DNA of 64,000 nt from Gilliamella sp. B3022 (GTDB taxonomy: Bacteria; Pseudomonadota; Gammaproteobacteria; Enterobacterales; Orbaceae): assembly GCF_028751545.1 (NCBI RefSeq), contig NZ_CP071867.1, positions 558,001 to 622,000 on the forward strand. The letters are read 5' to 3'. The first letter of the stretch is position 1; each line of letters starts with the position of its first letter. The notes below the pieces were generated by a model. The model was given only the letters and a program-made list of their open reading frames with translations, searched no databases and was not told the DNA's origin. The position numbers and the translations under genes are program-made. Below, one piece after another: positions 7,811 to 61,549 of this stretch.

Positions 7811-7857
7811 ATTTTTTACTAAAACGTATAGGTAACCTCAAACTTTTTGACAAACAT
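7811..7857 (+). repeat. Dispersed CTsAAAC-N11-CTsAAAC repeat, copy 1
   Basis: Two heptamers, CTAAAAC at 7819-7825 and CTCAAAC at 7837-7843, have starts 18 bp apart. The element has an AT-rich left flank, GT after the first heptamer, TAAC before the second, and TTTTTnACAAA on the right. It lies between pepN and the rhodanese gene. Four other copies are in this window. Confidence 0.8.
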
Positions 7858-7873
7858 GATAATGAGTTTTTAA

Positions 7874-8209
7874 ATGACAACGACCATAAAATCAATTACA
7901 CCTGTGGAACTAGCACAGAAAATAGAGGCATCTGAAGAATTATTCTTACTTGATGTTCGTGAACCTAATGAAGTCGACATATGCAGCATTAATGGGTCAA
8001 CACACATTCCAATGAATCTTATTCCATTATATTTAGATAAAATTCCAGATGGTATCGATATCGTTATTTATTGCCACCGTGGTGTAAGAAGTTTAAATGT
8101 TGCGAATTATTTAGTCGAAAATGGCTTTGATGCCCAAAACCTATATAATCTCACAGGTGGAATTGATGCTTGGGCATCAGTTATAGATAATCAGATGATA
8201 AGATATTAA
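7874..8209 (+). CDS. Single-domain rhodanese-like protein
   Basis: A 111-residue cytoplasmic rhodanese domain. DVREPNEVDICSINGSTHIPMNLI is the CH2A-type region. The active loop reads YCHRGVRS, so the persulfide-forming cysteine is present and a sulfurtransferase role is likely. It resembles GlpE in being a lone domain of about 110 residues, but the CHRGVRS loop is the type found in many rhodanese-related proteins, so a specific symbol is not justified. It stands alone between pepN and the convergent metQ-like gene. The ATG at 7874 has only a weak GAG SD about 10 bases upstream. Confidence 0.8.
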   Translation: MTTTIKSITPVELAQKIEASEELFLLDVREPNEVDICSINGSTHIPMNLIPLYLDKIPDGIDIVIYCHRGVRSLNVANYLVENGFDAQNLYNLTGGIDAWASVIDNQMIRY

Positions 8210-8233
8210 AAAGCCCGTGACTAAACCGGCTTT
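8208..8233 (-). terminator. Terminator of the metQ-like gene
   Basis: On the minus strand AAAGCC and GGCTTT form a 6-bp stem with a 12-base loop, followed directly by a short T-run. It lies about 50 bases past the metQ stop and abuts the end of the convergent rhodanese gene. Confidence 0.5.
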
Positions 8234-8281
8234 AGGCGACTAGTTTCCTCTATACTACTATGCATTAATTTGTATTTTGAT

Positions 8282-9130
8282 TTATTCCTTAGGCATTACC
8301 CAATAACCATTTTGATTATGTGCTTTCATATAATCTTTGAATTGTTGGGATTGATAAATACGCTTAATATCTTGAGCCCACTGACTATTTTCATTGCCAC
8401 CGTTTACAACAACCATAATTTCTAAATCAGGAATAATGGTTTCTAAAAGTAACGCTTTACTTGAGTCAATGTTAGCTGAATAAACGATACTTCCTGGTAT
8501 TACCGCAAAATCAACCTCATTCATTACACGGGGTATGTTCGCTGAATCCATTTCAATAATCTCAATCCCGGCAATATTTTGAGCGATATCATTTTTGCTA
8601 ACGATGATCGGATCTGCATTGTCTTTCAACTTAATCCAACCTGTTTTTTCTAATAAGTTATAAGAACGGGCAGCATTTGATGCATCTTGTGGGATCGCAA
8701 CTTTAGCGCCCGCAAACACTTGATCTAATGAGGTATATTTATTCGAAAATATGGCAGCTGGTACAGATGGAACATGAACCACAGGCTTTAAATTTGCTTT
8801 GCGTTGACTATTAAAAACATCCATATAAGCAGTATGCTGAGCGACGGTTAAATCAATACTTCCTTCGCTTAAAGCTACATCCGATTCAAGCAAATGTGGG
8901 AAATTGATCAATTTAACCTTATAACCTTCTGATTCCAATATTGGCTTAACGGCATCTTTAAACAGATCATTATAGGGACCGGGCGATACCCCCATACTGA
9001 TCTCTTTTTTCGTTTGATTATCGGTTTGCTTGGATGAGTCATTACAAGCATTTATAAAAAATGCTGAACATATGATGAAAACAAGTGATAGGTATTTAAA
9101 CAATTTTTGTTTGATTAAACATTTTTTCAT
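8282..9130 (-). CDS. metQ: MetQ/NlpA-family substrate-binding lipoprotein
   Basis: Binding component of a methionine-type ABC importer, anchored as a lipoprotein. The N-terminus MKKCLIKQKLFKYLSLVFII is followed by a lipobox ending INAC, with the lipidated Cys at about 29. The family core includes MGVSPGPYNDLFKDAVKPIL and an IPQDASNAAR loop in the ligand cleft. The 282-residue length is typical. It is transcribed away from an operon encoding an amidohydrolase, the MetN ATPase and the MetI permease, so the importer is split over two divergent units. The substrate could be methionine, another sulfur amino acid or an N-acylated derivative. The symbol reflects the family only. Confidence 0.85.
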   Translation of the reverse strand: MKKCLIKQKLFKYLSLVFIICSAFFINACNDSSKQTDNQTKKEISMGVSPGPYNDLFKDAVKPILESEGYKVKLINFPHLLESDVALSEGSIDLTVAQHTAYMDVFNSQRKANLKPVVHVPSVPAAIFSNKYTSLDQVFAGAKVAIPQDASNAARSYNLLEKTGWIKLKDNADPIIVSKNDIAQNIAGIEIIEMDSANIPRVMNEVDFAVIPGSIVYSANIDSSKALLLETIIPDLEIMVVVNGGNENSQWAQDIKRIYQSQQFKDYMKAHNQNGYWVMPKE

Positions 9131-9192
9131 GTGAGTTACCCTTGATAAGCTATAAACACTTGATACACTCTATCATATAAAAAATAGTTCAT

Positions 9193-9231
9193 TTATTCCA
9201 AGTAATTCTATCTTATAACTTTTTGGAATAA
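9193..9231. promoter_or_regulatory. Inverted repeat TTATTCCAA / TTGGAATAA in the metQ-amidohydrolase intergenic region
   Basis: Perfect 9-bp inverted half-sites (9193-9201 and 9223-9231) are separated by 21 bases in the 184-bp region between the divergent genes. The position fits an operator that controls both units. The TTGGAAT core recalls the CymR/YrzC sulfur-regulator motif of Firmicutes, but no such regulator gene is in the window. No MetJ-type AGACGTCT box is present here. Confidence 0.45.
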
Positions 9232-9314
9232 GATATAAAAAACGATTATTAGAGAGATAAATAAGCCTATGTTACCGTTAATGCCATCAATCATCATTAA
9301 TCGTTGGATAAATT

Positions 9315-10475
9315 ATGAGTCAAACTATCGCAAATACTATTCATCAGCTTTTTGTCGAATTACACCAAAATCCTGAACTTTCTAATCAGGAATTTGAAAC
9401 CACAAAACGATTAAAATCTTATTTACAAAAAGCCAATATCCGCATTTTAGAATTAGGAGCTAAAACGGGAGTGATAGCAGAAATTGGCTCAGGTTCACCA
9501 GTGCTAGCATTACGTGCTGATATTGATGCATTGCCTATCAAAGAACAAACTACTTGTGACTACCGCTCAAGAAATCCAGATGTGATGCATGCCTGTGGTC
9601 ACGATGTACATGCCTCTATTTTAATGGGAGCAGCTTATTTACTAAAAGCACATGAAAACGATTTAAAAGGAACAATTCGTCTACTGTTTCAGCCTGCTGA
9701 AGAAAACTTTAGTGGTGCGTTACATTTTATTGAAATCGGCGCATTAAATGGTGTTGATGCAATAGTAGGGCAACATAATAATCCCAATTTATCCATAAAT
9801 CAGATGGCATCCTGTGCCGGACCGTTTTCTGCTAACGTCGACCGTATTGAAATTACTGTTAAAGGTGTGGGCGCACATGCAGCAAGACCAGAAACCGGTG
9901 TTGATCCTATTGTTGTTGGTGCTCAAATAGTGAATGCCATTCAAACCATATCGAGTCGCAGTATCAGCGGATTAGATGCAGTTATTGTAAGTATAACCAA
10001 ATTTCAGGGTGGAAATACCTGGAATGTAATTCCCGAAACAGTAGAAATGGAAGGAACGGTTAGAACGCTCACCCCTAAAATTAGAGCTAGAGTTAAACAG
10101 CAGTTAACAATTATTACTGAAAATATTGCTTCTGCCCTAGGCGCACAAGCTGAGCTGCGCTGGTTTGATGGCCCACCTTCAATTATCAATGATGCCAAAT
10201 GGGTGGAATTTGCCAAACAAGTGGCTCAGCAGCAAAATTATGAAATTGTTGATTTTAAACCTCAATTAGGTGGCGAAGATTTTGCTCATTACTTACATCA
10301 TGTTCCAGGCGCTTTTATTAACCTTGGTTCACAAAGTTCTTATGCTGTGCATCATCCTAAATTTCAAATTAATCGAGATATGATAATGCCTGCGGTTAAA
10401 TATTTATCTGAACTTGCCCAACAAGCACTCATCCAATTAGCACAAAATAAAAAGCCGGCGGTAAACCATGATTAA
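9315..10475 (+). CDS. M20D-family amidohydrolase (YxeP/HipO-like)
   Basis: A 386-residue metal-dependent amidohydrolase that likely hydrolyses an N-acyl (for example N-acetyl) amino acid in the cytoplasm. Metal-site motifs of the M20D group are visible: HACGHDVHASILMG, QPAEENFSGA, a GQHNNPNL segment and GGEDFAHYL near the C-terminus. The lid domain (DRIEITVKGVGAHAARP, SITKFQGGNTWNVIPETVEMEGTVRT) closely resembles Bacillus YxeP. The stop overlaps the metN start by 8 bases, so it is co-transcribed with metNI. This suggests that the importer brings in the acylated substrate that this enzyme cleaves; that link is inference. Confidence 0.85.
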   Translation: MSQTIANTIHQLFVELHQNPELSNQEFETTKRLKSYLQKANIRILELGAKTGVIAEIGSGSPVLALRADIDALPIKEQTTCDYRSRNPDVMHACGHDVHASILMGAAYLLKAHENDLKGTIRLLFQPAEENFSGALHFIEIGALNGVDAIVGQHNNPNLSINQMASCAGPFSANVDRIEITVKGVGAHAARPETGVDPIVVGAQIVNAIQTISSRSISGLDAVIVSITKFQGGNTWNVIPETVEMEGTVRTLTPKIRARVKQQLTIITENIASALGAQAELRWFDGPPSIINDAKWVEFAKQVAQQQNYEIVDFKPQLGGEDFAHYLHHVPGAFINLGSQSSYAVHHPKFQINRDMIMPAVKYLSELAQQALIQLAQNKKPAVNHD

Positions 10476-11511
10476 ATTTGAATGTGTATCAAAACAATAC
10501 GAGCGTAATGGCATTACTACCCAAGCATTAAATAATATCAACCTAACCATAGCAAAGGGTGATATTTATGGCATTATTGGTTATAGCGGGGCAGGAAAAA
10601 GTACACTTGTTCGTTTAATTAATTTTCTTGAAAGGCCCACTCAAGGCAATGTCTTTATTCAAAATCAATCACTCAACCAATTATCTAGTAAAGATTTACG
10701 CCTAGTTCGTCGAAAAATCGGTATGATCTTTCAACATTTTAATTTACTCGAGTCGAAAACTGTATTTGAAAATGTCGCCATTCCGTTAGTTCTAATCAAA
10801 AAAGATAAACAAACGATTAAACGAAAAGTGAGGGAACTTTTAGAATTTGTGGGATTAAGTGATAAAGCTAATAGTCATCCTAAAGAGCTATCAGGTGGAC
10901 AAAAACAACGCATAGGTATAGCGCGAGCTTTAGCTAACGATCCTGATATACTGTTGTGCGACGAAGCCACATCTGCGCTTGATCCACAAACCACCCAAGC
11001 CATTTTAGATTTAATAAGAAAAATCAATGAAAAATATAAAATAACCGTCGTATTAATCACTCATGAGATGAGTGTGATTGAACGAATTTGTCACAAAGTT
11101 GCCGTAATGGAAAAAGGCAGAATTATTGAGCATGGTAATGTGCTTGATGTATTTGGCTATCCGAAACACCATACCACCCAAAATTTTGTCAGCTCTGTGA
11201 TAAACGATCAAATCCCAAGTGGGGTAATTGAAAATCTATTAAAGATTGAGGAAAACAAAAATAATATCAAATTATTCAAATTGGAGTTTTTAGGACGTTC
11301 AGCCTCTGAACCCGTCATTAACTCACTCATATTACAACAAAAAGTCATCGTGAATATTTTATTTGCCCATATGTCAGAAATCGAAAAAACGGTTTTAGGC
11401 AGTATGTTTGTTCAATTAAAAGGAGATGATAACCACATTAAAGAAGCGGTACACTATCTACGTGAACGTGATGTTCAAGTGACCGAAATAAAACAATGGG
11501 AGATCAACTAA
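10468..11511 (+). CDS. metN: MetN-type ABC transporter ATPase
   Basis: ATPase subunit of the methionine-type importer. Walker A GYSGAGKST is at 38-46, the signature LSGGQKQR at about 140, and Walker B ILLCDEATSALD follows. The C-terminal portion from about 265 is an NIL domain, which in E. coli MetN binds methionine and mediates transinhibition. The 347-residue length matches E. coli (343). It overlaps the amidohydrolase gene upstream and ends immediately before metI. Confidence 0.93.
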   Translation: MIKFECVSKQYERNGITTQALNNINLTIAKGDIYGIIGYSGAGKSTLVRLINFLERPTQGNVFIQNQSLNQLSSKDLRLVRRKIGMIFQHFNLLESKTVFENVAIPLVLIKKDKQTIKRKVRELLEFVGLSDKANSHPKELSGGQKQRIGIARALANDPDILLCDEATSALDPQTTQAILDLIRKINEKYKITVVLITHEMSVIERICHKVAVMEKGRIIEHGNVLDVFGYPKHHTTQNFVSSVINDQIPSGVIENLLKIEENKNNIKLFKLEFLGRSASEPVINSLILQQKVIVNILFAHMSEIEKTVLGSMFVQLKGDDNHIKEAVHYLRERDVQVTEIKQWEIN

Positions 11512-12210
11512 ATGCAAATATTAAATAATATATTGAGTTATTTAAGCACGACTTTTGCCACAACGGTCACTTCTGATCAGTTTGTACAAGCCTCTTACGA
11601 AACATTGATTATGGTCGTGTGTTCTTTAATATTGGGCTCATTAATTGGCATTCCGCTAGGTATCTGTTTAGTCACAACTCGTCCTTCAGGTCTGCTTGAA
11701 AACAGACGGGTATACCGGGTTATCAACCCAATGATAAATTTAGTCCGTTCCTTGCCATTTATCATTTTGCTTGTGGCAATTTTGCCTTTAACAAAGTTTA
11801 TTGTCGGTAGCTCAATTGGCACCACAGCTGCAATTGTCCCACTGACTTTTTATGTCGCCCCTTACATAGCTCGATTAGTGGAAAATTCGTTATTAGATGT
11901 AAAAAGCGGTATTATTGAAGCAGCCCAAGCCATGGGCGCAACACCTATCCAAATAATTTGGCACTTTATGTTACCTGAAGCTTTTAGCTCATTACTTTTA
12001 ACGCTTACAACCGCCACAATTGGATTAATTGGAGCTACCGCTATGGCAGGTGCTATTGGTGCTGGGGGTATCGGCGATTTAGCGGTTTCATATGGTTATC
12101 AACGTTTTGACACCACAGTGACTTATATTTGCGTCTTTATTTTGGTTATTGTCATTCAATTTGTCCAAAGTACGGGTAACTACTTAGCCCGTAAGGCACG
12201 CCATGAATAG
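11512..12210 (+). CDS. metI: MetI-type ABC transporter permease
   Basis: Inner-membrane permease of the MetNIQ importer, 232 residues with about five hydrophobic segments. The coupling-helix region that contacts MetN is visible as EAAQAMGATPIQIIWHFMLPEA (EAA motif). The start codon follows the metN stop with no gap, which indicates translational coupling. No hairpin terminator was found immediately downstream. Confidence 0.93.
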   Translation: MQILNNILSYLSTTFATTVTSDQFVQASYETLIMVVCSLILGSLIGIPLGICLVTTRPSGLLENRRVYRVINPMINLVRSLPFIILLVAILPLTKFIVGSSIGTTAAIVPLTFYVAPYIARLVENSLLDVKSGIIEAAQAMGATPIQIIWHFMLPEAFSSLLLTLTTATIGLIGATAMAGAIGAGGIGDLAVSYGYQRFDTTVTYICVFILVIVIQFVQSTGNYLARKARHE

Positions 12211-12311
12211 CTCAATTACGCGTTGATATATAGAGTAAATTACTCTTGTTGATTGCATTAATTCCATTACATGAGTTCAAATTCTATTTTATTGCATATT
12301 AATAAAAAATA

Positions 12312-12358
12312 ATGAGTGTAAAAAAGTTTCAGATTAACTATACGTTTGAGAATAAAAT
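12312..12358 (-). repeat. Dispersed CTsAAAC-N11-CTsAAAC repeat, copy 2
   Basis: Read on the minus strand, CTCAAAC (12344-12350) and CTGAAAC (12326-12332) are 18 bp apart, followed by a T-run and ACA. It lies in the metI-mlaF intergenic region, in the opposite orientation to the genes. Confidence 0.8.
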
Positions 12359-12493
12359 ATCTGAATAATCAAGTTATAATATCGCTAAAACAGTAAAAAC
12401 AGACTCACTGATAATGTGTTTAATAGATTTCATTATTTATAAATATCAAGTAAAATAGGCGAAATTTTAATTCTGGTAGTGTAGGAAATCATT

Positions 12494-13309
12494 GTGACTG
12501 ATGCATTACAGCAAAATTTGGTTGAAATACACGATATGTCTTTTTATCGTGGAACGCGACCTATTTATAAAAATATGAGTTTGACCGTTCCAAAAGGTAA
12601 AATAACCGCTATTATGGGACCTTCTGGAATTGGTAAAACTACACTATTAAGACTGATTGGTGGACAATTAAAACCACAAACAGGACAGATTTTATTTGAT
12701 GGTGAAGACATACCCACCATGTCCCGCGCAAGGCTATATGAAGTACGCAAACGCATGAGCATGCTATTTCAATCAGGCGCATTATTTACTGACCTATCAG
12801 TATTTGATAATGTTGCTTATCCACTGCGTGAACATCTTAGATTACCTGAGCCAGTATTACATAATTTGGTATTAATGAAGTTACAATCCGTAGGACTTCG
12901 TGGTGCGGCAAACATGATGCCATCAGAATTATCTGGAGGGATGGCTAGGCGAGCTGCATTAGCTAGAGCGATTGCACTTGATCCAGATTTAATCATGTTT
13001 GATGAACCTTTTGCTGGGCAAGATCCCATTTCAATGGGTGTAATAGTTAAGCTTATTTCTGAAATCAACCAATCCTTAGGCTTAACATGCATTGTGGTCA
13101 GTCATGATGTAAATGAAGTATTGAGTATAGCCGATTACGCCTACATTGTAGCAGAACAGCATATTATCGCTGGAGGTACCTCAGAGCAACTACGTGACAA
13201 TAACGATTTACGAGTCAAACAATTCTTGGAAGGACTTGCTGATGGACCTGTGCCTTTTCATTATCCTGCTAATGATTACAAATCGGACCTATGTAGAGGG
13301 ATAAAATAA
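12494..13309 (+). CDS. mlaF: Phospholipid ABC transporter ATPase MlaF
   Basis: ATPase of the MlaFEDB inner-membrane complex, which maintains outer-membrane lipid asymmetry by moving phospholipids between membranes. Walker [10 protein letters not shown] is at 42-50, signature [14 protein letters not shown], and Walker [14 protein letters not shown]. The C-terminal tail with [12 protein letters not shown] is typical of MlaF. The start is GTG with an AGGA about 8 bases upstream. The stop overlaps the mlaE start by one base. It is the first gene of mlaFEDCB. Confidence 0.96.
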
Positions 13310-14088
13310 TGTTGAATTTACTCGAGAAAATTGGGCAATGGTTGATTAATGTGATCGCCCTAATTGGCCGATCAGGAATGATGCTATTTGGTGCATTGAT
13401 TGGTCAGCCTCAATTTAAAAAACAATTCCCATTACTGATCAAACAATTCTATTTTGTTGGTGTTCAATCACTATCCATTATTATCGTGTCAGGTCTGTTT
13501 ATCGGCATGGTACTAGCGTTACAAGGTTACTTTATTTTAACAACATTTGGTGCTGAAGCCAGTTTAGGGATGTTGGTTGCATTGGCATTATTACGAGAGC
13601 TAGGACCTGTTGTTGCGGGACTGCTTTTTGCCGGTCGTGCAGGTTCTGCTTTAACAGCTGAAATTGGTCTTATGAAAGCAACCGAGCAATTATCGAGTAT
13701 GGAAATGATGGCAATCGATCCGTTACGCCGAATTATCGCTCCACGGTTCTGGGCAGGATTTTTCAGCATGCCTTTTTTAACAGCGATTTTTGTTGCGGTC
13801 GGCATCATAGGTGGCGTATTAGTTGGTGTTGATTGGAAAGGGATTGACGCAGGATTCTTTTGGTCATCCATACAAAGTAATGTCGATTGGTGGCATGATT
13901 TAGGTAACTGTTTTATTAAAAGTTTCGCATTTGCTATTGCGAGCACTTGGATTGCACTTTTTAATGGATACGATTGTGTACCAACATCGGAAGGAATTAG
14001 TCGGGCAACAACTAATACAGTTGTTTATTCATCATTGGTTATTTTGGGGTTAGATTTTATTTTAACCGCATTAATGTTTAGTAATTGA
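13309..14088 (+). CDS. mlaE: Phospholipid ABC transporter permease MlaE
   Basis: A 259-residue inner-membrane permease of the MlaE family. Conserved stretches include [49 protein letters not shown] and [28 protein letters not shown]. It is coupled to mlaF by a one-base overlap and followed by mlaD. Length equals that of E. coli MlaE (260). Confidence 0.96.
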
Positions 14089-14099
14089 GGTCATTTAAC

Positions 14100-14687
14100 A
14101 TGAGTCGTAAAGTAGAAATTACAGTGGGATTATTTATGGTGCTGGTTATTGTCTCAGTACTATTCTTATGCTTTAGAGTAACTGACCCAACATCGTTTAT
14201 CAGTCATAATTCGTATAGAGTTTATGCGCAATTTGATAATATTGGTGGTTTAAAAGTACGCTCACCAATTAAAATTGGTGGTGTTGTTATTGGCCGTGTC
14301 AGTAATATAAGTTTAAAAGCTACGAACAATGAAGACTATAAACCTTGGGTAACCATGGATTTAGACACCCAATATAATAAAATTCCAAAATTAAGTGCAC
14401 TTTCAATTAAAACATCAGGTCTATTAGGTGAACAATTTATCGATATTAACTTTGGATTAGATCAAAGCATAGAATACGATGTTGATGCTTTAGATGCACC
14501 GACATCTTTACCAAGTAAGGACAGTCATAATAAAGAAGATATCAATCCTTATCTTGAAGATGGCTCTATTATCTATAACACAAAGCCAGCAGTAGTCATT
14601 GAAGATTTAATTGGACAATTTTTATATAGTGCCGGTGGATCATCAGATAAAGATAAAAAACAAGATACTAATGACAATAAGGAGTAA
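14100..14687 (+). CDS. mlaD: MCE-domain lipid-binding protein MlaD
   Basis: A single N-terminal membrane helix anchors a periplasmic MCE domain (YAQFDNIGGLKVRSPIKIGGVVIGRV) that forms a hexameric ring in the Mla complex. The ATG at 14100 has GAGG nine bases upstream, part of it within the mlaE stop codon, and gives 195 residues (E. coli 183). A longer frame from a TTG at 14085 overlaps mlaE and lacks an SD of its own. The polar tail rich in Asp, Lys and Ser is unremarkable. Confidence 0.94.
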   Translation: MSRKVEITVGLFMVLVIVSVLFLCFRVTDPTSFISHNSYRVYAQFDNIGGLKVRSPIKIGGVVIGRVSNISLKATNNEDYKPWVTMDLDTQYNKIPKLSALSIKTSGLLGEQFIDINFGLDQSIEYDVDALDAPTSLPSKDSHNKEDINPYLEDGSIIYNTKPAVVIEDLIGQFLYSAGGSSDKDKKQDTNDNKE

Positions 14688-14689
14688 CT

Positions 14690-15322
14690 ATGTTAACCAA
14701 ATTTAAACAAACCTTTTTTTTAGTACTGACTTTAATGATAAGCGCTACGGCATTTGCAAACGATCCATATCAAGATATGCAAGTTGCAGCAGACAAAATT
14801 TTTAGTACGATGAAAGCGGAATCATCAACAATTAAATCTGATCCGAACAAACTTAAAGATATGGTCAGAAGGGATTTACTTCCTTACGTACAAGTTAAAT
14901 ATGCAGGGGCATTAATCTTAGGTAGTGCTTATAAATCTGCGACTGAAGCACAACGTACAGCTTACTTCAACGCGTTTGAAAACTATTTAATACAAGCATT
15001 TGCTCAAGCGCTATCAATGTACAATGGTCAGAGTTATCAAGTTGAAAAATCAAAAAATTTAGATGGCAAATCACTTGTTTCAATCCGGATATTATTAAAT
15101 CAACCAGATAAAAATCAACAACCTATCCGTATTGATTTCCAATGGCGAAAAAATACTGTTACTGGTGAATGGAAAGCTTATGACCTAACCGCTGAAGGGG
15201 TAAGCATGGTTACCACTAAACAAAACGAATGGGCAACTATTTTGCGCCAAAAAGGGATTGAAGCATTAACCAAACAACTCAATGATCTATCAAATCGCAA
15301 TATTGATCTTAACGCTAAATAA
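14690..15322 (+). CDS. mlaC: Periplasmic phospholipid shuttle MlaC
   Basis: A 210-residue periplasmic protein that carries phospholipids between the outer-membrane MlaA complex and MlaFEDB. It has a signal peptide with a likely cleavage after TAFA (about residue 23). The Ttg2D/MlaC domain shows VRRDLLPYVQVKYAGALILGSAYKSATEAQR. The gene starts two bases after the mlaD stop. Confidence 0.95.
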   Translation: MLTKFKQTFFLVLTLMISATAFANDPYQDMQVAADKIFSTMKAESSTIKSDPNKLKDMVRRDLLPYVQVKYAGALILGSAYKSATEAQRTAYFNAFENYLIQAFAQALSMYNGQSYQVEKSKNLDGKSLVSIRILLNQPDKNQQPIRIDFQWRKNTVTGEWKAYDLTAEGVSMVTTKQNEWATILRQKGIEALTKQLNDLSNRNIDLNAK

Positions 15323-15337
15323 AAAGGCTATTTTATA

Positions 15338-15610
15338 ATGTCGCGAATCAAAACAGATAAACAACAAGATGTATTGTATTTACAGGGTGAACTCGATGTT
15401 CACGCTTTAAATGATTTATGGTCAGCGCAAAGCTCTATATTAAATGGTGTTAAATACATTGATTTAGGAGAGCTGAGCCGAGTTGATTCTTCAGGACTCG
15501 CGACTTTAGTCTATTTTTGTATTAAATATTGTGTAAAACTCAAAAGTATAAATCCACAATTACAAACATTAATCACTTTATATGATTTACAACATGTCAT
15601 TGATGATTGA
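15338..15610 (+). CDS. mlaB: STAS-domain protein MlaB
   Basis: A 90-residue STAS domain protein, the cytoplasmic partner that binds and stabilises MlaF. The diagnostic motif RVDSSGLATLVYF carries the conserved DSSG. It follows mlaC by 15 bases and ends the contiguous mlaFEDCB set. Confidence 0.93.
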   Translation: MSRIKTDKQQDVLYLQGELDVHALNDLWSAQSSILNGVKYIDLGELSRVDSSGLATLVYFCIKYCVKLKSINPQLQTLITLYDLQHVIDD

Positions 15611-15618
15611 TTTATTAG

Positions 15619-15665
15619 ATTTTATACTGAAACACCCCCATAACCTGAAACTTTTTTACAAAAAT
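15619..15665 (+). repeat. Dispersed CTsAAAC-N11-CTsAAAC repeat, copy 3
   Basis: CTGAAAC at 15627-15633 and again at 15645-15651, 18 bp apart, with TTTTTTACAAA on the right. The element fills most of the 91-bp gap between mlaB and ibaG. Confidence 0.8.
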
Positions 15666-15701
15666 AAACTCTATAGTTTAGAGTAATGATGAGAATAAAT
15701 A

Positions 15702-15959
15702 ATGGATAAACAAGAAATTATAAATAAATTAAAAGGTTCACTTGAACTTGACGATATTCATGTTATGACTGACGACGGAAGTCACTTTCAAGTTATTGCA
15801 GTTGGAAAATTATTTGCTGATCTTAGCCGAGTAAAAAAACAGCAAGCCATTTACGCTCCTTTAGCAGAATTTATTAATGATAATCGTATCCATGCGCTAT
15901 CCATAAAAACGTATACACCTATTGAATGGCAACGTGAGCGCAAACTAATGGGATTATAA
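15702..15959 (+). CDS. ibaG: BolA-family protein IbaG
   Basis: An 85-residue BolA-like protein. IbaG binds monothiol glutaredoxin and is linked to iron-sulfur handling and acid response in E. coli. The fold's signature is visible in [31 protein letters not shown] and [10 protein letters not shown]. It follows mlaB as in E. coli, but the next gene is prlC rather than murA, and a repeat element lies between mlaB and ibaG. Confidence 0.92.
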
Positions 15960-16052
15960 GGATCATTCTTATTAAACCTTGAATAAACGTTTTTTAGCCT
16001 CAATATTATTCTCTATTAATAGAAAATATCAATGTACATAAGGTATCGTAAC

Positions 16053-18798: not shown

Positions 18799-18818
18799 TA
18801 CAGGAAAATTCATAATTT

Positions 18819-50364: not shown

Positions 50365-50385
50365 AACAAAGAGCTAAAGCATGTT

Positions 50386-51047: not shown

Positions 51048-51099
51048 GATAATTTGATAATAAATGTTGCTAGAAAATATAAGTTGCTCTAAGTAAAAA

Positions 51100-51117
51100 A
51101 GCCCCAAAAATGGGGCT
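51100..51117 (-). terminator. Terminator of prs
   Basis: On the minus strand AGCCCC/GGGGCT with a 6-base loop is followed by TTTTTT. It is about 25 bases after the prs stop and separates prs from pth, which therefore needs its own promoter. Confidence 0.8.
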
Positions 51118-51140
51118 GGTAATCATAATACTAAAACAGA

Positions 51141-52088: not shown

Positions 52089-52345
52089 GAGAAATCCTCA
52101 AGCATGTTATAATGATTACTTTATTTGTAATCGGTTAAATCGGAGCCATAATTATATAATTATTTATCTATCATGCTCAACCACAATATAAAAAATTATC
52201 AAAAATATTTGATATATATATCAAAATTATTAATTAAAAAAATTTGACCTTAAGATACTTTGGCTCATACCCCAAAATCGAGTAAAATAACGTACAAATC
52301 CATTAATTAGTTTTACTAAATTCCACAATCCAAGTAGATAACGTG

Positions 52346-53047: not shown

Positions 53048-53067
53048 CAATAAAACAAGGAGTCATT

Positions 53068-53793
53068 ATGCAAAATAGAACAATTGATTTAATTTGTCAC
53101 CGTCGTTCAATTCGGTCTTACCAATCAACGCCATTAACTAACGAACAAATTGAATTACTTGTGCAAGCTGCACAATCGGCTCCAAGTTCTAATTTTCTAC
53201 AATGCACCACAATAATCAGAATTACTGACAACAAAAATCGCTCAAAACTAGCACATTATGCTGGAGATCAAAACTATATAAATCAAACCTCTGAATTTTG
53301 GGTGTTTTGTGCCGATTTTAATCGCCATTTTCAAATCGATCCAACCATTCCCCTTGAAAAAGCCGAACAGCTTTTAGTTGGTTGCATTGATACCGCTCTT
53401 ATGGCACAAAATACTGTTATTGCGGCTGAATCATTAGGTTTAGGCACGGTTTATATTGGTGGGTTACGCAACAATATCGATAAAGTAACACAATTACTTG
53501 CCTTACCCAAATATGTTCTACCGCTTTTTGGACTTTGCATTGGTTACCCTGACCAAAATCCAGATCTTAAACCAAGATTACCAAAAGAATTAGTTTTTTT
53601 TGAAAATCACTACCAACCAATTAATCATCAATTATTAGCACAATACGATACTCAGTTGCGCCAATACTATGGACATCGACAAACCAATCAAAAAACAAGT
53701 GGTTGGAGTGATAAAATTGCAGAAACCCTTATTAAAGGGCAACGAGACTTCATTTTAAATTATTTGCATAAACAAGGATGGGTAACTCAATGA
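53068..53793 (+). CDS. nfsA: NfsA-type oxygen-insensitive NADPH nitroreductase
   Basis: An FMN flavoprotein that reduces nitroaromatics, quinones and related compounds with NADPH. CHRRSIRSYQSTPLTNEQIELLVQAAQSAPSSNFLQC is the FMN-binding N-terminus, and LGLGTVYIGGLRNNIDKV and LPLFGLCIGYPDQNPDLKPRLP are typical of NfsA. The ATG at 53068 has AAGGAG upstream and gives 241 residues (E. coli 240). It follows trmB by 20 bases and overlaps the next gene by four. Confidence 0.9.
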   Translation: MQNRTIDLICHRRSIRSYQSTPLTNEQIELLVQAAQSAPSSNFLQCTTIIRITDNKNRSKLAHYAGDQNYINQTSEFWVFCADFNRHFQIDPTIPLEKAEQLLVGCIDTALMAQNTVIAAESLGLGTVYIGGLRNNIDKVTQLLALPKYVLPLFGLCIGYPDQNPDLKPRLPKELVFFENHYQPINHQLLAQYDTQLRQYYGHRQTNQKTSGWSDKIAETLIKGQRDFILNYLHKQGWVTQ

Positions 53794-54947
53794 ACAACAA
53801 TCAATACCAATTAGACAAAGTCATTATATTAAGTCGTCACGGTATCCGTACTCCGTTAGAAAACACAATAGCATTGTTAGAACAATCCAGCCCGTTAAAA
53901 TGGCCTAGCTGGGATCATGCTTATGGTTATTTAACAACGCGAGGAGGCGTATTAGAAGCTTTCTTTGGACATTATCTATCACAATGGCTTGAACAAAAAA
54001 ACATTAATATTGAACCTCAAAATCCTGATATCTACGTTTATGCAAACAGCCTTCAAAGAACAGTGGCAACAGCTCAATTCTTAGTTAATGGCGCTTTTGC
54101 GGGTTATGACATTCCTATCCATCACAAATACACCATTGAAAAAATGGATCCGATTTTTGATCCAAGTGTACAAGATGACTCTACAGAATTAAAACAAGCT
54201 GTATTGAGGGATATTGAAGAGGCCGACAAAACCGCATCTATCTTCAAAAATTTAGCGCCCGCTTATCAAATGGTCTCAGATATATTGGACTATCCACATT
54301 CACAATTATATGCACGCTATCGATGTGATTTTGCCGATATCCCCTATGAACTCTATTTTAAAAAAAATGAAGAACCTGAGTTACATGGACCACTAGCCAT
54401 CGGAATTTGTGCCGTTGATGCATTTTTATTACAATATTATTCTGCATTTCCAAAAGATCAGATCGCATGGGGCAAAATAACCCGCCTAGAACAATGGCAA
54501 CAAATCCTGCAAATTCGTAACCACTATATTGATTTAGTCTTCCATTGCAAGACCATTGCTCAACACATTAGTAAATTATTAATCAATAAGATCGATGATT
54601 TACTGCATCACCAATCTCACAAAGTTAATCTACTCGTTGGGCATGATAGTACTATTGCAGCCTTGCTCGGCGCTTTGGATTTTGCACCATACCAGCTTCC
54701 AAACCAATGTGAAAATACACCAATCGGCGGGATGGTTATCTTCCAACGCTATCGCCACATTTCTTCAGGTGATTACTTTTTTAGAGCCGAATACGTTTAT
54801 CAAAGTTTTGAACAACTTTATACTGGGCAGCCAATTGATATTCATAATCCACCACAACATTATCAATTAAAGTTGGAAAATGCTTATATCAACAGTGATG
54901 GTTATTATAATTGGGCAGATTTTGCAAAACGTTTAAAGGATAATTAA
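53790..54947 (+). CDS. Agp-like histidine acid phosphatase without signal peptide
   Basis: A homologue of glucose-1-phosphatase Agp, which is periplasmic in E. coli. The phospho-histidine motif is SRHGIRTPLENT and the proton-donor motif VGHDSTIAALLGALDFAPYQL. VYANSLQRTVATAQF and NTPIGGMVIFQR also match Agp closely. Unusually it starts MNNNQYQLDKVIILSRHG with no signal peptide, and a stop codon just upstream in frame rules one out. The cysteines that pair in periplasmic Agp appear to be absent. The start overlaps nfsA (ATGA). A cytoplasmic sugar-phosphatase is inferred. Total 385 residues. Confidence 0.82.
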   Translation: MNNNQYQLDKVIILSRHGIRTPLENTIALLEQSSPLKWPSWDHAYGYLTTRGGVLEAFFGHYLSQWLEQKNINIEPQNPDIYVYANSLQRTVATAQFLVNGAFAGYDIPIHHKYTIEKMDPIFDPSVQDDSTELKQAVLRDIEEADKTASIFKNLAPAYQMVSDILDYPHSQLYARYRCDFADIPYELYFKKNEEPELHGPLAIGICAVDAFLLQYYSAFPKDQIAWGKITRLEQWQQILQIRNHYIDLVFHCKTIAQHISKLLINKIDDLLHHQSHKVNLLVGHDSTIAALLGALDFAPYQLPNQCENTPIGGMVIFQRYRHISSGDYFFRAEYVYQSFEQLYTGQPIDIHNPPQHYQLKLENAYINSDGYYNWADFAKRLKDN

Positions 54948-54978
54948 TAGTCATTTAAATTTTTCAATAAGACATCGA

Positions 54979-55002
54979 TTCCACCGACACACATCGGTGG
55001 AA
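54979..55002 (+). terminator. Hairpin after the Agp-like gene
   Basis: TTCCACCGA and TCGGTGGAA form a perfect 9-bp stem with a 6-base loop, 31 bases after the stop. No T-run follows. Confidence 0.55.
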
Positions 55003-55405
55003 CACATAATCTTTAACGCAATTATCACAAGAATAATTAACGACTGTTTTCAGATGATCTATGAGTAATTTACGTAAAAATATTAATCCTATTAAGCTGA
55101 TAAAATAGATTACTCACTCAGATCCGATCCCATAACATATTGATGCAAAAATCTGCACAACATATCTTCAGAAAACTACTTATTTTTAAAGGGAGATAAT
55201 ATAAAAACAAACTTAATATACGTTTTCACACCGATTCGATACATTTTCAAAAAAAGCTTACTGACCATTTGGATGAAAACCGTCATCTATGACCTAAATC
55301 TCATCTTTCAATATCATACTAAAAGATTAAGTACATTCACGGTACACCCATTTTATTTCTATTTTTAAGTGTCATTATTCATAAAATATCGTTATACCCA
55401 ATAAT

Positions 55406-55419
55406 TGTAATCGATTTCA
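55406..55419. promoter_or_regulatory. GalR/LacI-type operator 1
   Basis: TGTAATCGATTTCA fits the GalR/GalS half-site pattern TGnAAnCGnTTnCA. It is followed by TCACTTTTTT and a TATAAT at 55433-55438. The same block recurs about 205 bp downstream. Confidence 0.7.
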
Positions 55420-55557
55420 TAAATCACTTTTTTATAATAAATACCAAAATGAAAAAAAATTAAAAATTCATTTTATGTAAGTAAGCATTGCTGTAACCCT
55501 TACTCTATTGGCTACTATTGGCTATTATCACCTCAATAAATTAGAAAATAATTATAA

Positions 55558-55604
55558 AATATATACTGAAACGTCTGCTTAACCTCAAACTTTTTAACAA
55601 AAAA
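55558..55604 (+). repeat. Dispersed CTsAAAC-N11-CTsAAAC repeat, copy 4
   Basis: CTGAAAC (55566-55572) and CTCAAAC (55584-55590) are 18 bp apart, followed by TTTTTAACAAA. It lies between the two duplicated operator modules upstream of lacY. Confidence 0.8.
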
Positions 55605-55610
55605 CTTAAA

Positions 55611-55624
55611 TGTAATCGATTTCA
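55611..55624. promoter_or_regulatory. GalR/LacI-type operator 2
   Basis: Identical to operator 1 in all 14 bases and in the next four (TAAA). The shared block resumes after a 12-base insertion with TCACTTTTTTGTAATAAATA, so a whole regulatory segment is duplicated. Confidence 0.72.
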
Positions 55625-55707
55625 TAAAATGTTAACTGGATCACTTTTTTGTAATAAATAAAGTGATAGTATTCATTTTAACCAATAACGTTTTCGATAA
55701 ATAAAAG

Positions 55708-55721
55708 TGTAAACGATTTCT
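55708..55721. promoter_or_regulatory. GalR/LacI-type operator 3
   Basis: TGTAAACGATTTCT fits the GalR-type pattern except for the last base. It is 44 bases before the lacY start, a position where a bound repressor would block transcription. Confidence 0.6.
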
Positions 55722-55764
55722 AAATGAGGCCAAATCATTTAAAGCTTAACAGAGGAAGTTCATC

Positions 55765-57039
55765 ATGAATCAAAACATTAAGTCATCACTGCATAATAAA
55801 AACTATTGGGTATTTAGCCTCTACTTTTTTCTTTACTTTTTTATTATGGGAGCATACTGCCCTTTTTTTCCAGTTTGGTTAAAAATGATTGGCCTTGATG
55901 AAGCAAGTACAGGATACGTCTTTTCTTTTATTTCGTTATTTGCATTAGTTTTTCAACCTATTTTTGGTTTGATTTCGGATAAATTAGGATTAAAAAAACA
56001 CCTGCTATGGATTATTACCCTGCTATTAGTATTGTTTGGACCATTTTTTATTTTCGTATTTGGACCACTACTCAAATTTAATGTCACGTTAGGTGCAATT
56101 GTGGGTGGATTTTACCTAGGTATGGTCTTTAGTGGTGGGGCTCCAGCTATCGAAGCCTTAGTTGAAAAAATCAGTCGTCGCAGTGGTTTTGAATTTGGTC
56201 GCAGTCGTATGTTTGGATGTTTTGGTTGGGCAATTTGTGCATCGTTTGTTGGGATTATGATATCGAAAAACGTCAATGCTGTTTATTGGTTATGTTCTGG
56301 ATTTGCCCTAATTCTATTAATTTTAGTTAAAATCGCTGATCCGGCAAAAACCTCAACAACTGACGTAGTAGAACAATTGGGATTAAACAAACCTGAACCT
56401 TTCAATCTAAAACTGGCGTTAGATTTACTTAGAATGCGTAAGACATGGTTTTTTATGCTTTATATCGTTGGTGTAGCATGTACTTATGATGTATTTGACC
56501 AACAATTTGCTAACTTTTTTACTTCCTTTTTTTCAAGTGAGCAATTAGGCCGTGAAGCATTTGGTTACGTTACAACACTCGGCGAATTTTTAAATGCCAC
56601 AGTAATGTTTTTTGCGCCCATAATTGTAATGAAAATCGGCAGTAAAAATACCTTATTGATTGCAGGCATAATCATGTCAATTCGTATCACTGGTTCAGCT
56701 TTTGCTAGTAACGCAGTTGAAGTGGTAATTTTAAAAACATTGCATATGTTTGAAGCACCATTATTATTAGTTGGAGCCTTTAAATATATTACTAAACACT
56801 TCCCTATTCGCTTATCAGCAACCGTTTACTTAATCGCATTTTGCTTTGCAAAACAATTATCTATCATGTTTATGTCTACTTTTGCTGGATTGATGTATGT
56901 TAATATTGGCTTTGAAGGAGCCTACTTAGTTCTTGGACTCATCGCTTTCAGCTTTACACTGATTTCGTCCTTCACATTATCAGGACGTGGACCATGGGAT
57001 GTTTTCAAATATAAAAAAAATGAAGAATCCGGTAATTAA
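55765..57039 (+). CDS. lacY: LacY-family galactoside/H+ symporter
   Basis: A 424-residue, 12-helix permease of the oligosaccharide:H+ symporter family. It aligns along its length with E. coli LacY (417), and the residues essential there are visible: Glu in [10 protein letters not shown] (E126), Arg in GRSRMFG (R144), Glu in TLGEFLNA (E269), Arg in MSIRITGS (R302), and Lys/His/Glu in [12 protein letters not shown] (K319, H322, E325). SD GAGG precedes the ATG. It heads an operon with galETKM and no beta-galactosidase gene, so the transported sugar may be galactose, melibiose or lactose cleaved by an enzyme encoded elsewhere. Confidence 0.92.
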
Positions 57040-57082
57040 TTTCGATTCTCTGAACATAATTAACTTAAATTAAGGTATTTAG

Positions 57083-58099
57083 ATGAAAATATTAGTCACT
57101 GGCGGTTGTGGATATATCGGTAGCCATACTTGTGTTCAACTCATTCAATCAGGCTATACACCTATTATTATTGATAATTTATTCAATAGTAAAGCCTCAG
57201 TATTACAAAGAATACAAACTATCACAGGGAAACCTATTATCTTCTATCAAGGGGATGTGTGTGATGCAAAATTATTAGCAACCATTTTTAAAGAGCACAA
57301 CATCAAAGCCGTTATTCACTTTGCTGGTTTAAAAGCTGTTGGTGAGTCTGTATACAAACCGCTGGAATACTATGAAAATAATGTGTATGGCAGCATTGTG
57401 TTAATGAAAGCGATGCGTGATGCAGGGGTTAAGCAATTGGTATTCAGTTCTTCAGCTACGGTATACGGTGAATTAGCACCCGTTCCTTACGTTGAAACGT
57501 TACCGCAAGGATTACCTACTAGCCCATACGGTAAAAGTAAACTTATGGTTGAACAATGCATGATGGATTTAGCCAATGCTGAGCCTGATTGGTCATTAAC
57601 ACTGCTACGTTATTTCAATCCAGTTGGTGCTCATCCTAGTGGTTTAATGGGTGAAGATCCTCTTGGTATTCCAAATAATCTTATGCCATATATTACTCAA
57701 GTTGCAGTGGGTAAACGTGAATCTCTGGCTGTGTTTGGTAATGATTATCCAACCGAAGATGGCACTTGTGTTCGCGATTTTATTCACGTTGTGGACTTAG
57801 CTGATGGACACATTGCTGCACTTAAAGCTGATCAAAATAGAGTTGGAATCCATATTTATAATTTGGGTTCAGGTGTTGGTTACAGTGTTTTCCAAGTAAT
57901 TAAAGCTTTTGAAAAAGCGTCAGGAAAACCACTTAACTGGCATTTTGCACCTCGCCGTGCTGGTGATTTGCCGGCTTTCTGGGCTGATGCTAACAAAGCC
58001 GAACAAATATTAGGTTGGAAAACCAAACTCACCCTTGATGATATGGTAAAAGATTCATGGAATTGGCAATCTAATAATCCACAAGGCTATCCTGATTGA
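57083..58099 (+). CDS. galE: UDP-glucose 4-epimerase
   Basis: Interconverts UDP-galactose and UDP-glucose with bound NAD+. The Rossmann motif is VTGGCGYIGSHT, and the catalytic YGKSK has Tyr149 and Lys153, the E. coli numbering. The 338-residue length equals E. coli GalE. AAGG lies seven bases before the ATG. Second gene of the operon. Confidence 0.97.
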   Translation: MKILVTGGCGYIGSHTCVQLIQSGYTPIIIDNLFNSKASVLQRIQTITGKPIIFYQGDVCDAKLLATIFKEHNIKAVIHFAGLKAVGESVYKPLEYYENNVYGSIVLMKAMRDAGVKQLVFSSSATVYGELAPVPYVETLPQGLPTSPYGKSKLMVEQCMMDLANAEPDWSLTLLRYFNPVGAHPSGLMGEDPLGIPNNLMPYITQVAVGKRESLAVFGNDYPTEDGTCVRDFIHVVDLADGHIAALKADQNRVGIHIYNLGSGVGYSVFQVIKAFEKASGKPLNWHFAPRRAGDLPAFWADANKAEQILGWKTKLTLDDMVKDSWNWQSNNPQGYPD

Positions 58100-58152
58100 A
58101 TTGAAGCTCGACAATAATAACAACAAAATCGAATCAAATTAAAGAGGCAAAT

Positions 58153-59202
58153 ATGGATATTTTTAACCCAGTAGATCATCCTCATCGTCGTTATAATCCA
58201 TTAACTAATCAGTGGATACTTGTTTCACCACATAGAGCAAAACGTCCTTGGCAAGGACAACAAGAAGAGTTAAGCGAAGAACAAAAACCGAGTCACGATC
58301 CAACTTGTTTTTTGTGTGCAGGAAACAAGCGAATAACCGGTGATATCAATCCCAACTATAAGGGGACTTTCGTCTTTACCAATGATTTTGCTGCATTGAT
58401 GGAAGATACGCCAATTTCGCCAGATAATAATGATCCGCTATTTCAAATGCAAAGTGCCAGAGGCACAAGTCGCGTTATCTGTTTTTCACCTGATCACAGT
58501 AAAACTTTGCCTGAACTCGATTTATCTACCATTGAAAGCATGATCAAAACGTGGATAGGTCAACAACAAGAATTAAGTAAAAAATATCCTTGGGTACAAA
58601 TATTTGAAAATAAGGGCTCAATCATGGGGTGTTCTAACCCACACCCACATGGACAAATTTGGGCAAACAGCTTTTTACCCAACCAAATTGCGCGTGAAGA
58701 TCTCAATATGCGCAATTACTATGAAAAATATCACCGAAATCTGTTAGTTGATTATGTAGAAAAAGAACAAATAAAGCGTGAGCGAATTGTCGTTGAAACC
58801 AAACATTGGTTGGCCGTGGTCCCTTTTTGGGCAACTTGGCCATTTGAAACATTATTATTACCCAAAATGCATATTCCACAATTAACCTCACTAACAAGCA
58901 ATCAACAAAGTGATTTAGCAATAGCACTGAAAAAATTAACCAGCCGCTACGATAATTTATTTCGTTGCTCTTTTCCTTATTCAATGGGTTGGCATGGCGC
59001 ACCATTTATGCAAAATACAACTGATTATTGGCAAGTTCATGCTCACTTTTATCCACCGTTGTTACGTTCAGCAACAATCAAAAAATTTATGGTCGGTTAC
59101 GAAATGTTAGCCGAAGTACAACGAGATTTAACGCCGGAACAGGCAGCTGAAAGACTGCGTAATGTTAGTGATGTGCATTATAAAGAGATAAAGGATAAAT
59201 AA
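58153..59202 (+). CDS. galT: Galactose-1-phosphate uridylyltransferase
   Basis: Exchanges galactose 1-phosphate with UDP-glucose in the Leloir pathway. Active-site HPH is at 164-166 in [10 protein letters not shown], as in E. coli. Zinc-site cysteines are visible in TCFLCAG. The 349-residue length is typical (E. coli 348). Its stop is directly followed by the galK start. Confidence 0.97.
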
Positions 59203-60360
59203 ATGAAAGAATTAATCAATAAAACTTCGCAAGCATTTGAAGCTAAATTTGGCTATAAACCCGATACGACAATACAAGCGCCAGGTCGCGTAAATTTAAT
59301 TGGTGAACATACCGATTATAATGACGGATTTGTACTCCCTTGCGCTATTAATTATCAAACAGTAATCAGCTGTCATAAACGTTCAGATAATTTGATTCGG
59401 GTCATTGCAGTTGACTACAATAATGAGCAAGACGAATTTTCATTAGATTCCTCAATTGAAAAACATCCAAAATACCAATGGGCTAACTATGTACGTGGCG
59501 TAATCAAACATTTAAAAAAATATACTCATAATATACAAGGGGTTGATCTAGCCATTAGTGGTGATGTGCCACAAGGTGCAGGACTTAGTTCATCAGCATC
59601 ACTTGAAGTTGCCATAGCTAAAATGTTTCAGGTTTTATATAATTTGCCATTAGATGGCACTAAATTAGCGTTGATTGGTCAGGAAGCAGAAAACCAATTT
59701 GTTGGTTGTAATTGTGGAATAATGGATCAGCTTATCTCCGCACTAGGGCAAGCACAGCATGCCTTACTGATTGATTGCCGATCATTAGAGGCAATGCCAG
59801 TTTCAATACCTAAAGATTTTGCAGTCGTAATTATCAACTCAAATATCAAACGTGGTTTAGTGGACAGCGAATACAACAGTCGTCGTCAACAATGCGAAAC
59901 AGCCGCTAAAGCCTTTGGTGTCAAAGCGTTACGAGATGTAACTTTAGATGAATTAAAGCAAATTAAAAATAAACTGGATCCTATTGTTTTTAAACGCGCT
60001 CGTCACATAATTACCGAAAACGATCGTACCTTAAAAGCAGCTGTAGCACTGGCAAATAGCGACTATAAACTACTATCAAATCTTATGGCACAAAGCCATA
60101 ACTCTATGCGTGATGATTTTGAAATCACTGTGCCAGCCATTGATTATCTTGTTGAAATCATACACAACAACCTAGGTGAACAAGGTGGCGTACGTATGAC
60201 AGGTGGAGGTTTTGGGGGATGTGTAGTTGCACTCGTACCAAAAAATAAAGTTGACGATATCAGAGCCGTCGTTAAAAATAATTATGCTAAAGAATTTGGA
60301 ATCAAAGAAGATTTTTATGTCTGCATACCAAGTAAAGGGGCACACGCTTTATGCTCATAA
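59203..60360 (+). CDS. galK: Galactokinase
   Basis: GHMP-family kinase that phosphorylates galactose at C1. [21 protein letters not shown] is the galactokinase signature, [18 protein letters not shown] the ATP loop, and [19 protein letters not shown] motif 3. The 385-residue length fits (E. coli 382). It overlaps galM by 10 bases. Confidence 0.97.
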
Positions 60361-61349
60361 AACAGATTATAACACTTTCAAACAGACAGGGAATGACAAT
60401 TAAACTTTCAAACTGGGGAGCAACTTGGCTCTCTTGTCAATTACCCGTTGCAGGACAAAATCGTGAAGTACTACTTGGTTGTAAAAATTTGGAACAATAT
60501 GCACAACAAAAGGCCTATCTTGGGGCTACCATTGGTCGATATGCTAACCGAATTGCAAACGCAACCATTGAAATTAACGGAATAAACTACTCACTTAGTG
60601 CCAATCAAGGAACAAACCAATTGCATGGCGGTAAATTCGGATTTGATAAACAACTATGGCACATCCAATCTCAATCTGACAAGCAAGTTATATTTACCTT
60701 GATATCGCCTGATGGAGATCAAGGATTCCCTGGAGAGCTAAAAGTTGAAGTTACCTATAAACTCACCGATGACAATCAAGTTATTCTCTCTTTTAATGCG
60801 ATTACCACCAAAACTACCCCTGTAAATCTAACCAATCATGCTTACTTTAATTTAGACGGAGAAACGAGCAAAGATATCCTAAATCACACCTTACAAGTTA
60901 ATGCTGACTTTTATTTACCGGTTGATCATAGCGGCATACCAAACAGTGATTTAGTGAGCGTTAACCAATATGACATGGATTTACGCAGACCAAAATTCAT
61001 CGCCGAAAGATTTCTAGAAAGCCCGATAAGACAAATCACTGGCGGTTATGATCATGCTTACTTATTAAATAAATCGCAATCCATTGCCGCTAAACTAATA
61101 TCAGCCGATAAAAAAGTGAAGATGAATGTGAAAACAACCCTACCCGCACTGCAAATCTATACCGGTAATTTTTTAAAACATACGCCTAACAGGCATAATG
61201 GTCAATACAATAATTTTGCAGGAATAGCTTTAGAAGCTCAGTTTTTACCTGATAGCCCTCATCATCCTGACTGGCCACAACCAAGCTGTTATTTAGAACC
61301 TCAACAAACTTATCATCATCAAATTTGTTATCAATTTGATATTAAATAG
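60351..61349 (+). CDS. galM: Aldose 1-epimerase (galactose mutarotase)
   Basis: Interconverts alpha and beta anomers of galactose or glucose so GalK receives the alpha form. [14 protein letters not shown] and [15 protein letters not shown] carry conserved sugar-contact residues, [12 protein letters not shown] a catalytic His and [21 protein letters not shown] the catalytic Glu. The 332-residue length is slightly below E. coli (346). Last gene of the operon. Confidence 0.94.
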
Positions 61350-61502
61350 GAATTATTAAAAAACTATTGATTAACTCACATTCTCATCATCAATCACTAC
61401 TCTTTAATAACACTGTATGAATAAAATTATGCAATGAACAAATAATGTTCTCATCCTGTTAAACTGATCACACAATTTTATAAGAGATCTAACACTTTGT
61501 GT

Positions 61503-61549
61503 TTTTTTGTAAAAAAGTTTCAGGTTATCGCTACGTTTGAGTATAAAAA
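61503..61549 (-). repeat. Dispersed CTsAAAC-N11-CTsAAAC repeat, copy 5
   Basis: Read on the minus strand, CTCAAAC (61535-61541) and CTGAAAC (61517-61523) are 18 bp apart, followed by TTTTTTACAAA. It lies in the galM-coaD intergenic region, opposite to the genes. Confidence 0.8.

Follow-up and report, generated by a model that had tools for sequence, protein, structure and literature searches.

A 44-bp intergenic repeat of Gilliamella, genus-wide, constrained, and divided into dialects, delimits mobile gene units in at least one relative

In Neisseria, hundreds of short intergenic repeats of the dRS3/NIME type are linked to surface-protein genes, and identical dRS3 copies have been proposed as the site at which a whole surface gene, pilC1, is inserted or deleted (PMC3898611, of which an excerpt is drawn on here). 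The dRS3 repeat is 20 bp long with 6-bp inverted ends, ATTCCC(N8)GGGAAT, and according to the same excerpt one type is targeted by a filamentous-phage integrase (PMC3898611). Also described there are minimal mobile elements, in which different whole genes are found between two conserved genes and are incorporated solely by homologous recombination (PMC3898611). In this study, we examined a 64,000-nucleotide stretch of Gilliamella sp. B3022 (positions 558001-622000 of the single 2,599,312-bp contig of this genome, G000; the whole stretch is called the window), in which a sequence-only reading had noticed five copies of an intergenic repeat element (E). E is real, genus-wide, and constrained, it occurs in dialects, and in at least one relative of G000 it marks the ends of mobile gene units. 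Searches of the literature on Gilliamella repeats, recombination, and mobile elements, which were limited in scope, found no description of E.

The genome-wide recurrence on which the sequence-only reading had hung its proposal is borne out: with up to 2 mismatches, the pattern matches G000 at 79 places (44 forward and 35 reverse), and the reversed-pattern control matches at none. Alignment of the 79 matches defines E as a 44-bp asymmetric element with sharp edges, TTTTWTA-CTNAAAC-RTANNNWTWAY-CTSAAAC-TTYTTKACAAAA. Relative to the first heptamer, the conserved block runs from -7 to about +37; beyond it conservation is at background, and the least conserved stretch is found mid-element, at positions 10-13. 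The consensus does not fit the 20-bp ATTCCC(N8)GGGAAT form given for dRS3 in the excerpt. Two matches (L059 and L073) with no conservation outside the core were dropped as chance matches, which leaves 77 copies. In the window, all five copies are present at the positions and on the strands reported. In every copy the starts of the two heptamers are 18 bp apart, GT follows the first heptamer in four of the five, and TAA(C/T) before the second and TTTTTnACA on the right are found in all five; the heptamer form CTsAAAC holds generally, the departure being the first heptamer of the copy at 7811, which reads CTAAAAC. A pattern search of the window allowing up to 3 mismatches returned exactly these 5 matches; 100 shuffles averaged 0.50, with a count of 5 in one of them. 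A 45-column weight matrix, derived from the 77 copies with the window's five among them, scored the 5 window matches at 50.8-63.4 bits and found none in 3 base shuffles at 12 bits.

In G026 and G030, a surface-like gene (the cargo) of about 380-470 codons as listed occurs in dispersed copies that are flanked on either side by E. Members of this multicopy surface-like family include L283:1142-2452, L282:2011-3381 and 4428-5576, and L288:1315-2718 and 4326-5678. The cargo protein has a hydrophobic start as judged by eye; the three proteins scanned matched no Pfam family, no solved relative of the cargo was found, and the C-terminal part of one cargo protein is weakly similar to immunoglobulin-like or inverse autotransporter genes in 3 plasmids. 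The family has matches, partial ones counted, in 34 of the 35 genus genomes: 61 in G022, 52 each in G009 and G033, 46 in G030, 34 in G026, 3 in G000, and 0 in G007. In G026, the homology between the units in L282, L283, and L285 runs from one E to the next and stops at E or no more than about 20 bp from it; the unit in L286 aligns only in part. The two flanking copies of E around G026 cargo point in the same direction. Twenty-six of the 34 cargo matches in G026 were examined (the 28 listed, minus 2 beyond the stretch in which the list of reverse E copies was taken as complete), and 18 of them have an E on the opposite strand no more than 400 bp from the 3' end and 19 have one no more than 800 bp from the 5' end; 12 have such an E at both ends, and 25 have it at one end at least. 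By comparison, a same-strand E was found in 0 of 15, and E occurred on both sides in 0.1% of 2,000 random stretches. In 18 of the 19 cases the distance from the 5' end of the cargo to E is 518-585 bp, and this near-constant spacing indicates that the G026 cargo units are copies of one ancestral unit.

Using a longer pattern with up to 2 mismatches, E was detected in G000 and in 26 of its 34 congeners, with 0 to 185 copies per genome, while none of 25 genomes outside the genus matched and the reversed control gave 0 in all 60 genomes. In G029, G012, and G004, recognized copies are few or absent. A profile of the 77 copies gave 1 to at least 158 matches in each of the 35 genus genomes at an expect value of 0.01 or less; 150 candidates per genome were scored in full, so that the highest counts may be low. 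A second wording of the element, AAAAACCCCGTTCCTCAACTTTTTT (dialect 2), was first seen in one clade at two of the intergenic gaps described below (c1 and c3). Among 16 whole genomes, dialect-2 counts are 159 in G030, 125 in G026, 96 in G006, 83 in G018, 50 in G025, 19 in G032, 7 in G024, 2 in G000, and 0 in the other 8, and the reversed control is 0 except for 1 in G030. The alignment of 69 distinct dialect-2 stretches shows a conserved block, about 37 bp long, that is interrupted close to its left end by a few unconserved bases. The two dialect-2 matches of G000 (L257 and L265) are intermediate forms. L265, together with L049 and L051 of the same genome, is also an unusual-core variant of E, and these share a longer common tail, about AAAATAACGGACGGCAAAG...AAAAAATGGG, beyond the element. 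A head-to-head pair of dialect-2 elements in G030 (L287:832-875) forms a long inverted repeat that resembles a terminator hairpin, and L281 of G018 likewise has a head-to-head pair, by eye. An apparent strand switch of the elements along G026 was not used, being partly an artifact of the 43 of 68 reverse matches listed, which end near 0.84 Mb.

The wording of E beside the cargo also varies. In G014, a dialect-1 genome, a near-perfect dialect-2 E stands beside the cargo copy; the cargo copies of G023 and G020 are accompanied by a third wording of E, at 17-32 bits, and that of G010 has a direct repeat containing CTGAAACATCC on both sides. To judge from these sequences, E may travel together with its cargo.

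The gaps orthologous to those of the five window copies carry E at the same position in many relatives, in different wording. For c1 to c3, the gaps were counted by eye, and for c4 and c5 by scan, the genome of the window included in each case. The copy c1 (7812..7856, plus strand, 59.7 bits) lies between pepN (5119-7752) and a rhodanese-like gene (7874-8209); E is recognized in 10 of the 14 printed gaps, with 2 more diverged and 2 doubtful. The copy c2 (12313..12357, minus strand, 50.8 bits), which separates an ABC permease gene (11512-12210) from an ABC ATPase gene (12494-13309), is clear in 5 of 23 printed gaps. The copy c3 (15620..15664, plus strand, 54.6 bits) is flanked by a STAS gene (15338-15610) and a BolA-like gene (15702-15959); E is recognized in 23 of 26 printed gaps, with some copies diverged and both dialects represented, and it is absent in G029 and broken up in G027 and G022. 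The copy c4 (55559..55603, plus strand, 55.0 bits) is upstream of a LacY-type symporter gene (55765-57039), and 10 of the 21 gaps measured have a match to E, the strand and spot not always being the same. The copy c5 (61504..61548, minus strand, 63.4 bits) is situated between genes for an aldose 1-epimerase (60351-61349) and a cytidylyltransferase-like protein (61634-62122), and E matches occur in 8 of the 21 gaps measured.

The clearest comparison of a filled site with a single E is found between atpC and recC. This gap reads E-gene-E-E-E in G026 and has just one E in four relatives. For G030 and G032, the matches to the left and right flanks overlap on the same 25 bp, one E, and G006 and G025 have one E each. 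Diverged forms of E, identified by eye, are present in G000 and G011. Twelve genomes were asked in this comparison, of which G009, G033, and G018 could not be judged. At metG, E is located 86-88 bp from the gene in G000, G011, G032, and G020. Beyond this E lies a gene in G000; in G011 and G032 there is a segment with 79-81% similarity to the end of this gene, followed by a second E; and in G020 a surface-like gene is followed by a second, weakly matching element. In G030 and G006, a surface-like gene is placed between dialect-2 elements, the last of which is 303-304 bp from metG. Thus, metG is a variable site beside E, with no clean empty/filled pair. In the c5 gap, one E and no gene are found in G000, G001, and G015 (dialect 1) and in G018 and G026 (dialect 2), a weak E in G020, and an E in the opposite direction in G028. 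The gap in G032 contains a dialect-2 E, an alpha/beta-hydrolase gene, and a decayed second E recognized by eye, while a hydrolase gene in G011, like sequence in G005 and G014, and a remnant in G002 occur with no recognized E. In the array adjoining asnA in G011, the units resemble one another up to the right end of E and no further. By eye, L109 and L111 of G011 contain CRISPR-like arrays of 61-bp period, between elements and beside small genes; L111 also has a PAAR/DUF4225 effector-like gene with duplicated neighbors.

The explanation that we tentatively prefer, giving it a little less than an even chance, is that E serves as a border and landing site at which gene cassettes enter, swap, and leave. 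A cargo together with one E would insert at an existing E, which would yield E-cargo-E with both elements in the same direction, and exchange between the two elements would release the cargo and leave a single E behind. The exchange could be a specific recombination carried out by an as yet unnamed enzyme or a short-homology recombination at the conserved repeat. We infer that such E-to-E exchange is the way in which the units move and that the solitary copies in the window are sites of this kind. Of the three readings offered from the sequence alone, the tiny mobile repeat comes nearest; the relatives, on the other hand, indicate a border of mobile gene units and not a remnant.

Several observations weigh against this explanation. 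Solitary copies of E predominate in G000, where no E-cargo-E unit was demonstrated. In a sample of the genus with one cargo copy per genome, E was present within the stretch in 10 of 30 (some matches being weak) and in none of the other 20, a few of the 30 stretches being shortened by contig ends; the cargo copy of G001 has two E with 4 mismatches each, which is weak. The clean filled/single comparison comes from one locus only, atpC|recC, where 3 of the 12 genomes asked (G001, G020, and G023) have no E. At c5, both the gene and the element are lacking in 9 of the 21 gaps measured, and in G032 the hydrolase gene and its E share one direction, contrary to the rule for the cargo. The constraint on solitary copies, presented below, suggests a function beyond that of a border. 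Finally, the four families searched, to which the DDE transposases do not belong, yielded no dedicated recombinase. For the tyrosine recombinases (PF00589), every one of the 16 genomes has two strong Xer-like matches, with one more in G001 and G010 and more elsewhere; G026 has the two Xer-like matches and a fragment, all of which are matches at the level of the family that would include an integron integrase. A serine recombinase was found in 1 of the 16 genomes, namely the resolvase at G000:C1:2488558-2488959, and neither the Y1 transposase (PF01797) nor the IS110 transposase was found in any of the 16. Because a dedicated enzyme would be expected in G026 and was not found, general recombination, or an Xer enzyme or a member of an unsearched family, may act on E.

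The best surviving rival, which we consider unlikely, is that E is the binding site of a DNA-binding protein with a role in the nucleoid, repair, or segregation; the dialects would then reflect coevolution of the protein with its site, and the cargo would recombine at E as at any repeat. This reading draws on the constraint observed between G011 and G000. Of 40 listed copies in G011, 32 align through E to the stretch around a G000 copy; two of these are doubtful (the same G000 stretch at only 71% identity) and were left out, so that 30 of 40 align at 76% identity or more. For the columns of E that no search pattern made use of, the 30 pairs show differences at 16 of 238 positions (6.7%), compared with 287 of 1,686 (17.0%) in the flanks (p=1.5e-5). 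The variable middle of E diverges about as fast as the flanks (15.6%). Only the unpatterned columns were relied on because choosing copies by pattern biases the other columns. Because E is constrained, a binding protein is conceivable, and the paired protein-binding sites suggested by the sequence-only reading are retained here, though not as the preferred reading. The occupation of the same intergenic positions by E in different dialects, the spread of E over the whole chromosome, and a placement that spares gene starts (E stands no more than 20 bp from the 3' end in 25 of 69 cases and from the 5' end in 5 of 75) are in keeping with such a site. Against it stand the pattern counts of 0 to 185 within one genus, partly explained by dialect change, and the occurrence of E in two phage-like contigs as well. 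In addition, G000 shows no clear replication-arm bias: depending on the origin and terminus, which were assumed from the GC skew of the analyzed stretches, 46 to 53 of 77 copies are on one arm (p 0.001 to 0.11), and the strand of E switches 36 times along the genome, compared with 38.2 in shuffled order (p=0.39). With a weak bias that changes with the choice of origin and terminus, and strand switches at chance, a replication-arm signal was rejected, and the chromosome-organization signal proposed earlier is unsupported in G000.

The two phage-like contigs were recognized in scans of viral contigs, in which the strict pattern matched none and three looser patterns matched 1 contig each. Copies of E, both dialects being represented, are located at L426:2496-2520 and 6922-6946 and at L427:2057-2086; L426 and L427 encode a phage gpA-type (nicking) replication protein, and L427 also contains baseplate genes. 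In a further viral contig, L428, E lies between argH and serC, which are host genes. A phage origin of E was rejected on these counts and because an 81-base blast against phage records gave no match.

A stronger form of the preferred explanation, which we regard as improbable, is that the chromosome constitutes one distributed cassette array, with more than 100 oriented 44-bp landing pads for a dedicated recombination system. Such a system would have to lie outside the four families searched or use XerC/XerD in a novel manner, and insertion and excision would convert the dialects.

More doubtful again is the reading of E as a selfish repeat of the REP type, which a trans-acting enzyme would copy into gaps, the cargo being later passengers. 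The positions of E in G000, assigned with a home-made gene caller, would suit such a repeat. The 79 matches are arranged as <E< in 21, <E> in 19, >E> in 16, and >E< in 16; of the rest, 1 has no called left gene, and 6 overlap an open reading frame call, 2 of these being the dropped L059 and L073. Convergent gaps thus hold 16 of the 72 elements with both neighbors, compared with about 7% of placeable bases (a background taken from the 64-kb window only), and E lies near gene 3' ends, as given above. The variable copy number and the existence of tandem copies also fit. On the other side are the absence of Y1 transposases in the 16 genomes, the long persistence in place of the 30 G011 copies aligned above, and the lack of a hairpin. 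No consensus secondary structure was predicted for the 77 copies, folded on the aligned strand, and inverted half-copies within 60 bp on either side of E numbered 11, compared with 13.9 expected by shuffling, which is no enrichment. The sole Rfam match in the window is an L31 ribosomal-protein leader (RF03157; 41028-41091, minus strand), away from the E copies. A hairpin or RNA element was therefore rejected, and the earlier statement that E forms no hairpin, and hence is neither an ordinary terminator nor a REP palindrome, agrees with both the structure prediction and the half-copy test.

That E is a transcription signal (promoter, operator, or terminator) of its neighbors is very improbable: its right end resembles a -35 box (TTGACA/TTTACA), but no conserved block is present at the -10 distance beyond that end in the 79 aligned copies, there is no hairpin, convergent gaps are common, and the even orientation relative to flanking genes (same direction 16, opposite 21, p=0.51; 72 with both neighbors), the nearness to 3' ends, and the distance from 5' ends are unlike a promoter or operator, which upholds the earlier dismissal of a simple promoter.

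If the preferred explanation, the exchange of cassettes at E, is true, these bacteria have at their disposal many marked and oriented sites at which genes, including a large surface-like family, can be traded. It would then become testable how dispersed repeats stay uniform within a genome and yet switch dialect between species with their positions kept, and how genes could be exchanged without a recognizable integrase.

Among known systems of gene exchange, an integron cassette consists of a gene and an attC site in fixed orientation, and attC folds as a single-strand hairpin. The cargo-associated E likewise has a fixed orientation to its gene, but it forms no hairpin on the aligned strand, and its copies are scattered and not gathered in a single array. 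Xer pdif modules are gene modules between copies of a short 28-bp XerC/XerD site. Modules between copies of a site are common to both systems, and the only tyrosine recombinases that the 16 genomes have in common are the two Xer-like proteins; E looks unlike dif, for which no search was run. REP/BIME sequences are dispersed intergenic imperfect palindromes accompanied by RAYT (Y1) transposases. E is similarly dispersed and intergenic, but it has no palindrome, and none of the 16 genomes has a Y1 transposase.

The Neisseria systems, as far as the excerpt describes them, are the closest. With dRS3, E shares the character of a dispersed intergenic repeat; a link to the gain and loss of surface genes is suggested by G026 but was not shown in G000, and 20 of the 30 cargo copies sampled have no recognizable E. 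E differs in its length of 44 bp, its asymmetry, its lineage dialects, and the lack of an integrase in the families searched (PMC3898611). As with minimal mobile elements, alternative genes are found between conserved genes at metG and atpC|recC; the excerpt defines these elements by incorporation through homologous recombination alone (PMC3898611), whereas the ends of the cassette units fall on E. On this comparison, E appears to work like dRS3/NIME and minimal mobile elements without being a member of either, its length, symmetry, and associated integrase setting it apart from the systems as they are presented in that excerpt.

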